Assembly (NCBI GenBank): GCA_009773615.1
Contig: WSYA01000004.1
Location: 1-64,000 of the forward strand
Direction: 5' to 3'
Origin: Gallionellaceae bacterium
GTDB lineage: Bacteria; Pseudomonadota; Gammaproteobacteria; Burkholderiales; Gallionellaceae
Length of the DNA stretch: 64,000 nt
Made by a program: the position numbers and the translations under genes. The notes beneath the pieces were generated by a model. It worked only from the letters and a program-made list of their open reading frames with translations. It was not told the origin of the DNA and did not search any database. Positions 10,401-47,878 of the stretch are shown here, in pieces (position 1 is the first letter of the stretch; each line of letters opens with the position of its first letter).

Positions 10401-11327
10401 TTAAACGGAAAGGTAGCGCGCACGCTGTTGCTCAACAAACAGTGATTGCTGACGCGCCTCGTGCATCCCCACAGCCTCGTGATAGCCAAAATTTGTTATC
10501 AACGCTTCCAGCATAGGATGCCTCAGCTCTTCTGCTGCACCGACGTGATAGTAATGCGCCTTGGTAAAAACATGAAAGTTGTCAGATGCCCAATTTTTTT
10601 CAACTTGCAGGTTGGTTCTAAATTCATTGCTATGCCATGTAGAAAGAATGAATTTGCAAGGCAAGCTGGCGAGTAAATCAGCCAAATCCGCCTCATCCAG
10701 TTCTGACCACCCATTGAAATAATCTGTGTGCCGACCTGCATAAGGAGGGTCGGCATACACAACATCACCAGCCACAGCAGTCGCTATTGATTCTCTAAAA
10801 TCAGCGACCCTGAACTCCCAATCAGAAACCGAGACTACCCTAGAAATGGTTTGTACCTGATTCACTATTTTGGTGATGTAAGCTGGCGCGAATCTTTCCG
10901 GCTTGCGGCAAAATGGCACATTAAATCTGCCGGAGCGATTGAAACGCATCACCCCGTTGAAACATGATCGGTTCAAAAATAGAAAGTCCAAAGAGTTGGG
11001 CGCATTATTGAAACGCTCTCGCACCTCATAAAAATATGCCTCGCCAATAGCGAGTAGTTTTGCCCCTTGCTCACTCAAAAACTCTCTGACACCAATAGAG
11101 TTTATGCGCCCCGATTGAATATCTTTGTAAAATTGAATGATGTGAATATTCGAGTCGCAGAGCAAAGCCCGCTTGGGCTGGAGATTTAATGCAACCACAC
11201 CGGAGCCGCAAAACGGCTCGACCCATCGACCATCCGATAATTCCCCTGCCATATTGGCAATCTCAGCCACTAGCTTAGTTTTAATGCCTTGGCATTTAAT
11301 CGGTGGAACGAGCGGCGGTGAACTCAT
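10401..11327 (-). CDS. D12-class DNA N6-adenine methyltransferase (EcoRV-like)
   Basis: Modification enzyme of a type II system, 308 residues. Motif I is WVEPFCGSGVVALNL, preceded by the D12-class PPIKCQGIKTKLV; the catalytic motif IV is DPPYAG. LNRSCFNGVMRFNRSGRFNVPF is the typical D12-family insert. The order and size match M.EcoRV, so I infer methylation of an adenine in GATATC. The start overlaps the endonuclease stop by four bases. Base composition is visibly more AT-rich than hom and thrC, which suggests acquisition by transfer. Confidence 0.93.
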   Translation of the reverse strand: MSSPPLVPPIKCQGIKTKLVAEIANMAGELSDGRWVEPFCGSGVVALNLQPKRALLCDSNIHIIQFYKDIQSGRINSIGVREFLSEQGAKLLAIGEAYFYEVRERFNNAPNSLDFLFLNRSCFNGVMRFNRSGRFNVPFCRKPERFAPAYITKIVNQVQTISRVVSVSDWEFRVADFRESIATAVAGDVVYADPPYAGRHTDYFNGWSELDEADLADLLASLPCKFILSTWHSNEFRTNLQVEKNWASDNFHVFTKAHYYHVGAAEELRHPMLEALITNFGYHEAVGMHEARQQSLFVEQQRARYLSV

Positions 11328-12199
11328 TGCGAGTCCTCCTCTGCATTTGGCTCATCATCACCAAGCGCGGAAATTTCTTTCTCGTATTTACGTAGGGTAT
11401 CAATCCCTCGCTGTTTATATTCGAGATAATTTTTCAAATTAGTATATGGCCGTTCAATGTCTAATGCCTTGGCCATATCCTTGGTTAAATAATACATCCA
11501 GTAGTCGTCATAAACCTCTTCGCCCAGCTTTGCAAAAACACCCGAGCCATCCAGCAGATGGTCAATCCGAGCAATAGAACCTATATTTTTGGTATTTCCA
11601 CTTCCCGGCCTGGATGCTGCAATGCGATATTTTGGTTGTGCGAAAAATTGAAAATCCTTAATGACTGACGGGATTTTTTTAATATCTTTCAACTCATACT
11701 GTTTTCTTTCGTCAATCACATTCAAGGGCTTTGAATAGATCACACCAAGAACAAAATGTCCTTGATACTCACCATACGGATACAGCGTATTTTTATTGCT
11801 CTTGCGATTTCGAAAATATCCTGTAAATGCGCCGAGAGTCATACCATTCACATTTGCATCATCCACTCGATAGGTGCTTTTTATATCGACCGCAAATTTG
11901 TTTCCTCTCTTCTTATCGACAAACGTGAGGTCGGGATAAAAATTTTGATGCGGTGACAATTCCACTTCCAGACCATGCTTTTTACCAAACTCAACAAACA
12001 TCGGGAAAAGAAGCAGCTCAAGTACTTTGGAAACGATTTTAGTATCGACGGAAATAGTATAGATGCGCTGATATACGTCAATGAAACCTTTGATAATCCA
12101 GTCACCCTCATTGGTAGCAACTGCAGCAGCAAAGGATTCGGCATGAGATTGCAAATGTTGCAAGAACTGTTCAGATGTCATGCCTGTGCGTTTCGTCAT
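11324..12199 (-). CDS. EcoRV-like type II restriction endonuclease
   Basis: By eye this matches EcoRV along most of its length. The catalytic PD...D-x-K core is Asp90 (HQNFYPD), Asp105 and Lys107 (VDIKSTY), equivalent to Asp74, Asp90 and Lys92 of EcoRV. The recognition loop GSGNTKNIGS at 199-208 is nearly identical to the EcoRV R-loop, which contacts GATATC. The glutamine-rich loop before the first Asp is also kept. The product has 291 residues against 245 in EcoRV, with a longer C-terminus. It starts three bases after the hom stop, so it probably depends on hom transcription. GATATC cleavage is inferred. Confidence 0.92.
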   Translation of the reverse strand: MTKRTGMTSEQFLQHLQSHAESFAAAVATNEGDWIIKGFIDVYQRIYTISVDTKIVSKVLELLLFPMFVEFGKKHGLEVELSPHQNFYPDLTFVDKKRGNKFAVDIKSTYRVDDANVNGMTLGAFTGYFRNRKSNKNTLYPYGEYQGHFVLGVIYSKPLNVIDERKQYELKDIKKIPSVIKDFQFFAQPKYRIAASRPGSGNTKNIGSIARIDHLLDGSGVFAKLGEEVYDDYWMYYLTKDMAKALDIERPYTNLKNYLEYKQRGIDTLRKYEKEISALGDDEPNAEEDSQ

Positions 12200-43094: not shown

Positions 43095-46079
43095 CTAGGG
43101 CTTACGGAGAATGACGCTTTCCGCATCCTCAAGCTCCTCCTTGCGCCGCCAATAGCCGTGTTTCTCGATCAGCCGCCGTGCCTCGGCGAGGTCTTGTTTT
43201 GCGCTGTGCGGGGTGCCATCGGGATCGTTCCACGGGTAAGGCGTGGCTCGAAAAAACAGCCGCGCGCGGTGCAGATAGATGTCCGCCATATGCAGCTGCA
43301 TCGGGCCGCGTTCGGCGATTTCCAGAGCTTCGGCTAGGTCGGCTTTTGCGGATTCGGAACGGTTTTCAAGTGTGAGCAACCAAGCGCGAGTAAGCAGGCC
43401 ACGGGGGATATCGTCCATATTGCCGGAACGGCGCAGGCCGTCCACGGCGTGCTCGATAGATTCGTGACAAGCTGTATGGGAAGTTCCCTCCAGCAGCGCC
43501 GCGTAGAGCGCGGCGCGGCCCAGAGTGAGGTGGTCGAGGGCCGCGCTTAATATGTCCGCGTTACTTTGCTTGGCCCACTGAAGCGTCTGCGCCGCGCGCT
43601 CGGAGACGGAGCGACAAGCATCAGCTACTTCCGAATCCTGAATCCCGCATCCTGAATTCTGCGTTTTCTTCCAAGCCGCGCACTCGGCGGTTGCGAGCAG
43701 CAGGTCACAATAGTGGAAGCCCCGCATGGAATACAGAAGTGGATAGTCTGGTTGATGCTTGGCCTGCATGGACTCGGCCTCTTTGAATAGCGCATTCGCC
43801 TCGCCCATTCGTCCAGCCTGATGCAAGGCGTCGGCATGGGACGTGCGTGCAGTCATCTTCCAAAAAACATCGCCGCTTTGGTCGGCATAACGCACGGACT
43901 GCCCGGCATCACTGACCGCAGCGTTCAACTCACCCAGCGTCAGCTCCAACTCACTGAGATTGCTAGCACCGATTGCGGCGTTTTTCCAGTTCTCCTGCTT
44001 GACAGCCATCTCCAATGCAGCTCGCATCGGCTCGATAGTCTCGACCAGTCGACCCATGGCGCGTAGAGCAGAACCCGCTTCATCAAACAACCAACCATGA
44101 GTGTCTTTCGTAAGCGCTGGCGAAATGCGACTCCACGGGATATCAAAGAAGCAGGTGACCGCACCAAGATTGGAGCCGAACGCACCAAATTTCCTCGTGC
44201 TGTATTTCTCATTCTCGCGCAGAATACGGGCGTGATAAACCTCCTCACACGCCTCCTGCCCCATCCCCGCCAAACACCCATGCGCCACGGCCTGATACAG
44301 CGGCTGCAACTCTGCCAGCGTGGGTTGAGCGCCTTCCTTTGTTCTTATGAGGTGTTTGTAGAGCCGCCGATGCGCCTCGCGCCAAGAACCGGGATGTTGT
44401 TCGCGAATTTGTTTGGCAAAGTATTCGCGCAGCAGCGGGTGAGCATCCAGCGACAGCAACGTACCTGCCGTGTCGCGGTTCACCGTGAGCAGCCCCGCAC
44501 CCTCCAGCCGAGTAAGCGCGATGTTGCGTTTTGGCTCATTCTTTTCGACGAGCAACTCGGTCAGCTTCGGAATGGCAGGCGCTTTCAGCAAAACGTAGAA
44601 ACAGTCGGCGGGCGCGGGGCGATCAAACAAACCCAGCAGACGCAGCAGTGCGAGCGCGCGGCGACCTTTTTCTCCCTCGCTCTCGAACGATTGCACATAC
44701 GCATCCATCACACGGAAGGCATGTCCGCCCTGCTCTTCGGCATCGGCCTCTTCCAGCTTGATGAGGTCTCGCTTGCGGATGTCGCCATGGTGAGCGTCGC
44801 GCAGATAAGCGCCGAGCAGGTTCAGCGTGAGCGCGTGCCCCCTTACATCTTCCACCAGCTTCTCAAAGTCTTCACGAGAGCCATTCTTCACTCCGAGCTT
44901 GTGAAGCAAATCTACGCCCGCGTCAGTCGATAGGCGCAGCAGTCTTATTTCCGGCGCAGTGGTTTGCCGGTAGGCGTTCAAGTCCGGGATCGCGTAGCGC
45001 GTGGTGACCACGCACAGGCCGTGGCTGCTCGCGGCCAGCCCTTTGAGCAAGGTGGCAAGGCCAGCGTCCTTGAGTTCGCCCGGCATGGTCGAGGTGGGCG
45101 CGTATTGCAGCGGCTCCACACCATCAAGAATAAGCAGCGCGCGCTTCGCGCCGACGAGCTGCGCCAGCCGCTTGGCCCTTTCGCTGGCATGCTGCGCGCC
45201 GCCCGCCATTTCTTTCTCGCCAAAAAATTCGAGAGCCGCATCGAGAAACAAATCGCTGCTCGCCACCGCCTGTTCCCTAGTACCCTGGCTGTAGAACGAC
45301 CACGCAAACACCGCCTCGCATCCTGGCCAATTATCGTGCGCCAATTCCGCCGCCCAATGCGCCACCAGCGAGGTCTTACCTTCACCGCCGAGCGCGACAA
45401 AAGTCAGCACATGCGGACGCTTCGGTTCGCCGCTGATAGCTTGCTTCCATGCGTCGTTGAGAACTTTAGTTTCGGCTTCGCGACCGATGAGTTCGGCGGG
45501 GGCGTATTTGATGATGCGGGAAATGTCTATCTTTGCCGCATCAACAGATCGCGGCTCATCGAAGGTCAACGCAGTGCCTTGTTGACGAGGACGAATTTTC
45601 AGCGTGCCCACCGGGTACGGTTCAATACCGGCTTGCCCAAGCAGAAAATCGTAAAGGTTCTGGTAATTTTTCTCGGATGTCAGTGCGTAGTAGCTGGTCG
45701 AGCGTAGCGGCTCTGGAATGTGTGCATCAACCGCAGCATTCAAAAACACGGGCACGAACTTCAGTGTCTTGCTGCGACTGTCATACAACTCTTGCGTGAT
45801 GAGCGCGCCTTCCCAATCCACGCCCTTGCCTTTGCCGGGCTGCTCGTGCCCGCGAAAGCGCAGGTAGTAGGTTTCGGTGCAAACGACGAGAACGAACTGT
45901 GCCTCATCGAGTTGGTTCAACATCCAACGCGGCCATTTCTCCTCCGGCGCGCCGTTTACGTATTGGTCGAGCCGAGTTTCAATGCCGTCTTGCCGCAACC
46001 GCTCGGACAATTCGAGCACTTGTTTCTTGTGCTCTTCGGAGTCGTGGCTATAGCTGATGAAAATGGGTTTCTGGCTCAT
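43095..46079 (-). CDS. SEFIR-STAND (NB-ARC-like)-TPR protein
   Basis: A 994-residue cytosolic protein in three parts. Residues 5-150 are a SEFIR/TIR-like domain: IFISYSHDSEEHKKQVLELSE, then the SEFIR-type RLRQDGIETRLDQY and EKWPRWMLNQL, with acidic GVDWEGALITQELYD. Residues 195-470 are a STAND NTPase of NB-ARC style: Walker A GGEGKTS at 231-237, Walker B ALLILDGVE at 314-322, sensor VVTTR and a GHALTLNLLGAYL motif. The C-terminal 450 residues are TPR-like helices, likely the sensor. Bacterial SEFIR proteins can act in abortive antiphage defence by NAD+ depletion; that role here is inferred. It follows mazF by six bases. Confidence 0.85.
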   Translation of the reverse strand: MSQKPIFISYSHDSEEHKKQVLELSERLRQDGIETRLDQYVNGAPEEKWPRWMLNQLDEAQFVLVVCTETYYLRFRGHEQPGKGKGVDWEGALITQELYDSRSKTLKFVPVFLNAAVDAHIPEPLRSTSYYALTSEKNYQNLYDFLLGQAGIEPYPVGTLKIRPRQQGTALTFDEPRSVDAAKIDISRIIKYAPAELIGREAETKVLNDAWKQAISGEPKRPHVLTFVALGGEGKTSLVAHWAAELAHDNWPGCEAVFAWSFYSQGTREQAVASSDLFLDAALEFFGEKEMAGGAQHASERAKRLAQLVGAKRALLILDGVEPLQYAPTSTMPGELKDAGLATLLKGLAASSHGLCVVTTRYAIPDLNAYRQTTAPEIRLLRLSTDAGVDLLHKLGVKNGSREDFEKLVEDVRGHALTLNLLGAYLRDAHHGDIRKRDLIKLEEADAEEQGGHAFRVMDAYVQSFESEGEKGRRALALLRLLGLFDRPAPADCFYVLLKAPAIPKLTELLVEKNEPKRNIALTRLEGAGLLTVNRDTAGTLLSLDAHPLLREYFAKQIREQHPGSWREAHRRLYKHLIRTKEGAQPTLAELQPLYQAVAHGCLAGMGQEACEEVYHARILRENEKYSTRKFGAFGSNLGAVTCFFDIPWSRISPALTKDTHGWLFDEAGSALRAMGRLVETIEPMRAALEMAVKQENWKNAAIGASNLSELELTLGELNAAVSDAGQSVRYADQSGDVFWKMTARTSHADALHQAGRMGEANALFKEAESMQAKHQPDYPLLYSMRGFHYCDLLLATAECAAWKKTQNSGCGIQDSEVADACRSVSERAAQTLQWAKQSNADILSAALDHLTLGRAALYAALLEGTSHTACHESIEHAVDGLRRSGNMDDIPRGLLTRAWLLTLENRSESAKADLAEALEIAERGPMQLHMADIYLHRARLFFRATPYPWNDPDGTPHSAKQDLAEARRLIEKHGYWRRKEELEDAESVILRKP

Positions 46080-46085
46080 GTTAAT

Positions 46086-46409
46086 TCAAGCAAACCCGAG
46101 GAAAACCGCTAGCGCGCGATTCACCGCCAACAGAGTCCCTCCATCCAGTCGACCGATCACTGCGCCGATTTTTTCGCGCGATACAGACTGGGGCTTATCC
46201 ACCATCACCTGCGATGGTTTGGACAAGCCGTTCATTTCATCCGGGAGCACTGCAACACGAAATAACGGCGCATCACGCCACTCGCTGGTCACAGGCAAAA
46301 TCGTTATCGAAGGATGCTCGTTAAACAAATCAGACTGAATAACCAAAGCCGGGCGCGGTTTACCGAGATCGCCCTGCAAAGCCACAGTCACCAGATCGCC
46401 ACGCCTCAT
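46086..46409 (-). CDS. mazF: MazF/PemK-family mRNA interferase toxin
   Basis: A 107-residue toxin of the CcdB/MazF fold: MRRGDLVTVALQGDLGKPRPALVIQSD, the conserved TILPVTSEW strand with the catalytic Thr-Ser, VMVDKPQSVSREKIGAVIGRLD and a C-terminal helix. The start at 46409 overlaps the antitoxin stop as ATGA. The usual activity is sequence-specific mRNA cleavage. A SEFIR-STAND gene follows after six bases, so the three genes form one operon. Confidence 0.92.
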   Translation of the reverse strand: MRRGDLVTVALQGDLGKPRPALVIQSDLFNEHPSITILPVTSEWRDAPLFRVAVLPDEMNGLSKPSQVMVDKPQSVSREKIGAVIGRLDGGTLLAVNRALAVFLGFA

Positions 46410-46618
46410 TGCCAGCCTTCGTGATTGGCAACCGCCGCAAGCCACTTTGCGGTTTCGTTCTCATGCGCATCGTTTTTCACCAATTGCGACTGGCGGCGGC
46501 ACTCCTCGGCAAAGCCCTCGCGCCGGGTGTCCGGCACCCAAATCTGTACAGGGCGCAAACCCGATTCCCGCAATGCAGCGCGATGCTTTTGTACGCGCTC
46601 CGATGTGGCAGCTCTCAT
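46406..46618 (-). CDS. mazE: MazE-type antitoxin (DUF3018-like)
   Basis: A 70-residue antitoxin. The N-terminal RVQKHRAALRESGLRPVQIWVPDT is a short ribbon-helix-helix-like DNA-binding segment, as in the DUF3018 antitoxin group; the acidic and polar C-terminus (NDAHENETAKWLAAV) should wrap the toxin. CGGAGGTAATT gives a strong ribosome site. The promoter and a pair of likely operators lie directly upstream, as expected for autoregulation by the antitoxin. Confidence 0.88.
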   Translation of the reverse strand: MRAATSERVQKHRAALRESGLRPVQIWVPDTRREGFAEECRRQSQLVKNDAHENETAKWLAAVANHEGWQ

Positions 46619-46637
46619 AATTACCTCCGATAATTGG

Positions 46638-46685
46638 CGTTACATGAAACGCATGGTAGCCAGCTTTTGCGTTACATGCAACGGA
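46638..46685 (-). promoter_or_regulatory. mazEF promoter with paired operators
   Basis: Two near-identical 16-base sites on the plus strand, GCGTTACATGAAACGC (46638-46653) and GCGTTACATGCAACGG (46670-46685), start 32 bases apart, about three helical turns. On the minus strand a promoter fits between and across them: -35 TTGCAT (46677-46682), a 17-base spacer and -10 TACCAT (46654-46659). Binding of MazE-MazF here would block RNA polymerase. Confidence 0.72.
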
Positions 46686-46714: not shown

Positions 46715-47878
46715 CTAAATATCATCATGCTTATGGGCGTAACCGCTCATTCCGGCAAGAAACCGCACCAAGGCGTAACTCCCCCGCAACAATAGGCGCA
46801 CCCACAAGCTTCGTTTATGCCAATCCGATCTGGCCACTATGCGAGCGCCATACTGCATTTCATCCATCAGGCTCTGGCGCAACGCCCCGGCGAATGCGCT
46901 GTCCTGCACGACCAGATTCGCCTCGCGCGCCAACCACAAACTGAACGGGTCAATATTGGAAGATCCGACCGTCGCCCACTTGCCGTCGATCACGGCCACC
47001 TTGGCATGCAGGAAGCTTTGCGTATACGCATGAATCTCTATTCCTGCCTGCAACAGCTCTTCGTAGAGCGCCTGCGTGGCATAGTGCAACAAAAGATTAT
47101 CGACTCTACCCTGTAACAGCAGCACCACTTTCACACCTCTGCGCGCCGCGTTCAGCAGCGCACGACGGAAGCGGCGACCGGGAAGAAAATACGCGTTGGC
47201 GATGATGATCTCGTGTTGCGCATGGCTGATCGCACGCAAATAGGCATGTTCGATGTCGCGGCGATGGCGCAGATTGTTTCGAACTACAAACGAGACTTCT
47301 TTTGACGCACTTTGTTGGCGCACAAACTTACCCACTCGGCTGCCGCTCCTGCGCAAACTCGTCCATGATACGATCTGCCATAACCTGCGCATGTTGTAAG
47401 AAATCTGCTCCACGACAGCCCCCTGCACCTCGACCGCATAGTCCAGACGCGGTGCCTGCAAGTGGTCCGACATGTCGTCAATGATGTTGATGCCGCCGAC
47501 AAAGGCGACACGTTCATCCACCATCACCAGCTTGCGATGCAGGCGCCGCAAGCGTTGGCGAGACATGCGAAAACGCGTCAGTTCGGGGCGAAACCACAGC
47601 ACTTTCACGCCCAGCATGCGCATCTCTTCCAGCCATGCGGCGGGTAAATCCGCCGAACCGAAGCCGTCCAGCAATACATGCACGCTCACCTCGCGAACAG
47701 CGGCGCTTTTCAATGCCTCTTTCAGCGCTTCGCCGACTTCATCGCTGGCAAAAATGTAAGTCTCAAGATAGATGGTGTGCTGCGCCGCATGAATCGCGGC
47801 CAGCAAGCGCGGAAAATACTCGGCACCGTTGCGCAACAGCGTGAGTTGATGACCGGCGACATCGTGAGTGCTGCTCAT
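46715..47878 (-). CDS. clsB: cardiolipin synthase B (phospholipase D family)
   Basis: Membrane-associated enzyme of 387 residues that makes cardiolipin or related phospholipids from phosphatidylglycerol. Both HKD motifs are intact: LHRKLVMVDERVAFVGGINI in the first half and LHAKVAVIDGKWATVGSSNID in the second. No N-terminal membrane helices are present, as expected for ClsB; a C-terminal hydrophobic stretch (LWVRLLLRGSYALVRFLAG) may bind the membrane. It overlaps the upstream phosphatase gene by four bases, the same pairing as ybhO-ybhP in E. coli. Confidence 0.94.
   Translation of the reverse strand: MSSTHDVAGHQLTLLRNGAEYFPRLLAAIHAAQHTIYLETYIFASDEVGEALKEALKSAAVREVSVHVLLDGFGSADLPAAWLEEMRMLGVKVLWFRPELTRFRMSRQRLRRLHRKLVMVDERVAFVGGINIIDDMSDHLQAPRLDYAVEVQGAVVEQISYNMRRLWQIVSWTSLRRSGSRVGKFVRQQSASKEVSFVVRNNLRHRRDIEHAYLRAISHAQHEIIIANAYFLPGRRFRRALLNAARRGVKVVLLLQGRVDNLLLHYATQALYEELLQAGIEIHAYTQSFLHAKVAVIDGKWATVGSSNIDPFSLWLAREANLVVQDSAFAGALRQSLMDEMQYGARIVARSDWHKRSLWVRLLLRGSYALVRFLAGMSGYAHKHDDI

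Follow-up and report, generated by a model that had tools for sequence, protein, structure and literature searches.

The mazE-mazF-SEFIR locus and its described counterparts

SEFIR systems are reported to act by depletion of nicotinamide adenine dinucleotide (NAD+) (PMC12926258, PMC12774641). STAND/NLR-like ATPases, which include Avs, bNACHT and TIR-STAND as well as Apaf-1 and the plant NLRs of eukaryotes, join an effector to an NB-ARC module and a superhelical sensor, and MazEF/PemIK type II toxin-antitoxin systems pair a PF11455 antitoxin with a PemK/MazF toxin. Genes of these kinds lie side by side in a 64,000-nucleotide stretch of DNA from a Gallionellaceae bacterium (contig WSYA01000004.1, positions 1 to 64,000), referred to here as the window, in the order mazE, mazF and a gene for a SEFIR-NB-ARC-TPR protein. 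The original prediction for this locus described a three-gene operon in which toxin-antitoxin autoregulation might set the level of the STAND sensor, or in which infection might release two suicide activities together. The analysis reported here indicates that the locus probably consists of two independent, adjacent elements, an autonomous mazEF cassette and a self-sufficient SEFIR-STAND immune gene.

The predicted gene identities were upheld by profile matches. The mazE-like antitoxin gene (46618-46406, minus strand, 70 amino acids) matches Pfam PF11455 (E 5.9e-30), and the mazF/PemK-type toxin gene (46409-46086, minus strand, 107 amino acids) matches PF02452 (E 7.7e-23). The two overlap by 4 nt (ATGA), as had been predicted, and this overlapping pair of a MazE-type antitoxin and a MazF/PemK toxin identifies a MazEF type II toxin-antitoxin system. 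It resembles MazEF/PemIK in both proteins, in the overlap and in its palindromic operators, and is distinguished from them by its downstream neighbour alone. The SEFIR-NB-ARC-TPR gene (46079-43095, minus strand, 994 amino acids), identified with Pfam and PADLOC, starts six bases past the toxin stop (TGA-ATTAAC-ATG), again as predicted, and in the same reading frame. Read-through of the mazF stop codon (TGA ATT AAC ATG, 46077-46088) would give a MazF-SEFIR-STAND fusion. This candidate was rejected because other MazF proteins terminate at about the same point, and a common frame, expected in 1 of 3 cases, is taken to be coincidental.

Pfam matches in the 994-residue protein were to SEFIR (PF08357, E 7.4e-16), NB-ARC (PF00931, E 3.9e-5) and TPR_MalT (E 1.2e-4). 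The PADLOC bSEFIR model matched residues 1-159 (E 1.7e-45) over model positions 35-193 of 412. The protein is therefore like the bSEFIR anti-phage system in its N-terminal domain but does not match the full-length model, its SEFIR domain being fused to NB-ARC and TPR regions instead. A canonical full-length bSEFIR protein is encoded elsewhere in the source genome: it has 479 amino acids, lies on contig C58 of that genome (G000) at about 10590-12026 (locus L055, 433-1869, minus strand), and matches the PADLOC model over nearly its full length (E 4.2e-120).

An AlphaFold2 model of the SEFIR-STAND protein (mean predicted local distance difference test score, pLDDT, 81.8) comprises a SEFIR domain (about residues 1-147), a low-confidence linker (149-180), a nucleoside triphosphatase (NTPase) domain (about 195-440), a helical part extending to about residue 580 and TPR-like helices (588-992), the helices forming a long superhelix. 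The best Foldseek matches in the PDB were a STAND protein with a TPR sensor (6mfv), Apaf-1, CED-4 and plant NLRs; since whole-chain template modelling scores were low (0.2-0.3 by query length), this result supports the fold class and not a close relationship. The NTPase carries a Walker A motif, GGEGKT (231-236), and a Walker B motif, LLILDG, with D319. Residues G231, G232, G234, K235 and D319 were invariant in 15 aligned proteins. An NB-ARC NTPase with both Walker motifs and a repeat sensor places the protein among the STAND/NLR-like ATPases, from whose described bacterial forms it differs in that its core has no PADLOC match to Avs or other STAND models.

Fourteen relatives have the same core with exchanged N-termini, a further likeness to the NLR-like ATPases. 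The shared core is preceded by SEFIR in loci L003, L008 and, on alignment evidence, L009, by TIR_2 in L014, L018, L019 and L020, by an alpha/beta hydrolase in L011 and by DUF4062 in L007, and in L004 and L005 by a region with a weak PADLOC match to an endonuclease effector. The most fitting description of the SEFIR-STAND protein is that of a new representative of the NLR-like immune ATPases, whose effector domains are exchangeable. The NB-ARC-TPR core of L003-L022 bears a distinctive LLxLDGxEPLQ motif and carries N-terminal effectors of no fewer than four or five types; one genome, G570, has two such STAND genes about 8 kb apart (L018 and L022).

By analogy with its family, we infer that the single-gene SEFIR-STAND element would work through NAD+ depletion: the TPR region is the probable sensor of an invader signal, the NB-ARC module probably oligomerises and the SEFIR domain probably depletes NAD+. 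The original prediction had named Glu90 and Glu97 as the residues of this domain to change in an NADase assay. Across six aligned SEFIR domains Glu90 proved invariant and Glu97 did not, which makes Glu90 the candidate residue.

Linkage and boundaries of the two elements

Conservation of the pairing was assessed with six-frame phmmer searches, using core, SEFIR, MazF and MazE queries, over every locus collected. The survey reaches relatives of this core and of this MazF; a different STAND kind beside a different MazEF kind would go unseen. Core relatives were found at 19 distinct loci in 15 genomes (L003-L022, with L005 and L016 representing one locus), and SEFIR domains at 13 further loci of the phylum. 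Outside the source genome, mazEF was present at none of 33 SEFIR/STAND loci, for 31 of which the upstream sequence measured 390 nt or more, and no related SEFIR/STAND gene followed mazF at any of 42 MazF loci. SEFIR/STAND and MazF occurred together solely in copies of the window itself. The full-length relative nearest to the SEFIR-STAND protein, L003, is 63% identical across the alignment and 75% in the SEFIR part, and the 3.6 kb upstream of its gene contain no mazEF.

Similar results were obtained among close relatives and mobile elements. The STAND gene was absent from the seven other genomes of the genus searched, several of which are incomplete (72-99%), and two of the seven carried a MazF of 84-85% identity in other surroundings. 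Plasmids had no full-length STAND relative at E 1e-40 and phages had none at 1e-10; the plasmid matches listed at 1e-5 were to the SEFIR/TIR part only, and the two examined (L143 and L144) had no mazEF directly adjacent. Scans of IMG/VR gave no STAND relative and a single MazF, whose contig also bears phage-like genes, and a MazF relative was found in 311 plasmid records. A literature search recovered no paper linking MazEF to SEFIR or STAND, the two that mention both MazF and SEFIR being reviews, which agrees with the earlier statement that no such system is known to have been described. Within the collections searched, conserved linkage of MazEF and SEFIR-STAND was found in no independent genome. 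The original prediction had proposed this search and had named uniqueness to one genome as grounds for its own refutation, grounds that hold within the collections searched. On the sequences compared, the pairing has the look of genes that happen to adjoin in this genome, and not of a new defence system.

The limits of the cassette point the same way. When the locus DNA was compared by blastn with all loci collected, 70-80% similarity was found in L129, L146, L145, L044, L025, L024 and L131. This similarity sets in at operator 1 (query 116-119), breaks off precisely at the stop codon of mazF (query 715) and continues into SEFIR at none of the seven loci, bounding a cassette of about 600 bp (46086-46685, minus strand). 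Because similarity to other genomes stops at the mazF stop codon, mazEF is, as far as sequence comparison goes, a self-contained, autonomous cassette and not part of a larger unit. Elsewhere its neighbours, named by eye from translations, include a glycosyltransferase, a methyltransferase, biotin synthase, superoxide dismutase, an electron-transfer flavoprotein, PIN toxins and others. A same-strand gene begins no more than about 10 nt from the mazF end, or overlaps it, at L030 (methyltransferase-like), L037 (glycosyltransferase-like), L048 (electron-transfer-flavoprotein-like) and L130 (hsdR-like), and the 6-nt gap in the window is thus not exceptional. At another locus a second, near-identical MazE-like antitoxin frame (L043:2853-3077) lies about 1 kb 3' of mazF.

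The predicted operator-bearing promoter at the head of the operon was recovered, as two palindromes flanking a putative promoter, TTGCAT (46681-46676), a 17-nt spacer and TACCAT (46658-46653), that spans 46653-46681 on the minus strand. Operator 1, CGTTACATGCAACG (46670-46683), overlaps the -35 region, and operator 2, CGTTACATGAAACG (46638-46651), directly follows the -10 region. Their 10-mer core, TTNCATGNAA, occurs in the whole window at just these two sites. The putative promoter fell below the threshold of a generic promoter scan, and its layout recurs in the mazEF cassettes of several other genomes, some with TATAAT. Palindromic operators at the antitoxin promoter, all of them predicted sites, are common to many other mazEF cassettes: with overlapping matches merged, 28 of the 37 other mazEF loci have operator sites 5' of mazE, and 14 of the 37 have two. 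The first element would be a MazEF cassette, probably autoregulated, that comprises operators, promoter, mazE and mazF and belongs to a type dispersed among many Proteobacteria and plasmids.

These results left the proposed control of the STAND protein by toxin-antitoxin autoregulation, and the joint release of two suicide activities, unsupported: the cassette is autonomous, the operators occur at unlinked MazEF loci and the pairing was found nowhere else. The evidence shows that a mobile toxin-antitoxin cassette is easily mistaken for part of a defence operon, and that cassette boundary, operator sharing and a linkage survey are simple tests separating a chance neighbour from an operon member.

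Expression of the locus and competing readings

Pairing energies with the anti-Shine-Dalgarno sequence were -10.9 kcal/mol for mazE, -6.2 for mazF and -3.7 for SEFIR, compared with a median of -2.6 and a 1% tail of -9.5 kcal/mol for random 20-mers. Only mazE therefore has a strong ribosome site, beyond the 1% tail, which confirms the prediction of one such site at the operon head; the Shine-Dalgarno sequence of SEFIR is weak. A scan limited to the sigma-70 consensus detected no promoter on the minus strand inside mazF. Strong pairing for mazE alone and the lack of a sigma-70-like promoter within mazF make a single mazE-mazF-SEFIR transcript with translational coupling plausible, and the shared transcript of the original prediction remains probable from the layout. 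The STAND gene itself shows neither an evident promoter nor a strong ribosome site and is therefore probably expressed from the mazEF promoter, by read-through and translational coupling. Such shared expression would be local and not a conserved joint mechanism.

Several points weigh against treating the two elements as independent. The cassette and the SEFIR gene point the same way with 6 nt between them, and mazF shares its reading frame with SEFIR. Related cassettes adjoin type I restriction genes at L146, L130 and L050, which may reflect a preference for defence operons. The survey comprised fewer than 2,000 genome searches, together with scans of large collections that reach close relatives only, and a rare pairing could escape it; the incompleteness of several genus genomes has the same effect. 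No clean empty site that would show the order of arrival of the elements was found among the family genomes compared. Regulatory coupling of mazEF and SEFIR-STAND may exist in this one organism.

The restriction loci bear on the alternative that survives best, which we nevertheless regard as unlikely. According to this explanation, a mobile MazEF cassette enters defence operons and is kept there since their loss turns toxic, the cassette promoter drives the defence gene as well, and SEFIR-STAND is one host among several. At L146, from the same genus and with a MazF at 85%, mazEF lies between a type I specificity gene (hsdS) and an hsdR-like gene (L146:1-3321); at L130 an hsdS gene precedes it and the N-terminus of an hsdR-like gene overlaps it (L130:1-3318); and at L050 an hsdM-like gene begins 187 nt after it. 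HsdS (L146 and L130), HsdR (L146) and HsdM (L050) were confirmed by PADLOC or Pfam, and HsdR of L130 was identified by eye. With SEFIR-STAND, the defence neighbours of the cassette number four, a raw count to be read knowing that mobile cassettes gather in variable regions anyway. Precedents exist in PrrC and the many HEPN RNases embedded in restriction-modification operons (PMC3710099) and in the stabilisation of mobile elements by toxin-antitoxin systems (PMC12548467). The PrrC-PrrI and HEPN cases likewise place a toxic RNase gene in or beside another defence operon, but MazEF has its own antitoxin and operators, and no physical control by a neighbouring defence protein is indicated. Most cassettes, moreover, adjoin housekeeping or unrelated genes, and no transposase or integrase adjoins the cassette in the window. 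It is equally doubtful that this MazEF subfamily is a mobile promoter-plus-addiction cassette recurrently entering defence operons, of type I restriction and here of SEFIR-STAND, that would tie the level of the immune gene to the antitoxin and raise it upon antitoxin loss in infection. The recurrence beside type I restriction genes may matter more than the SEFIR-STAND pairing. The hsdR-like frame of L146 (L146:1862-3321) has an unusual insertion, a GIY-YIG match (residues 295-366) between helicase parts.

Less probable again is that the genes are adjacent but separately transcribed, with an unrecognised promoter inside mazF driving SEFIR-STAND. The restriction of the promoter scan to the sigma-70 consensus leaves room for such a promoter, yet no minus-strand candidate appeared within mazF, and the weak SEFIR Shine-Dalgarno sequence and 6-nt gap suggest translational coupling. 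A dedicated three-gene defence system, in which antitoxin loss in infection derepresses the operon, SEFIR-STAND rises and MazF and SEFIR act jointly, would agree with the single promoter region, the lone strong ribosome site, the close spacing and the common strand, but is very improbable given that the pairing is missing from all other loci examined, that both parts occur alone, in close relatives included, and that the literature searched holds no description of it. A functional link between the elements would be new, in that it would place a suicide module that cleaves RNA and an NLR that depletes NAD+ under a single switch.

Flanking genes

The two elements lie between a phospholipase-D-like (cls) gene (46715-47878), the upstream neighbour of mazEF, and carA, downstream of the SEFIR-STAND gene. 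In the family, carA and cls were located in 40 genomes; in those compared the two genes were apart, and the sequence preceding carA and that following cls varied. The carA gene has its own near-consensus promoter-like site, TTGATA-17-TATAAT (43046-43018, minus strand), with 11 of 12 consensus matches, and this separate site indicates that the module ends before carA.

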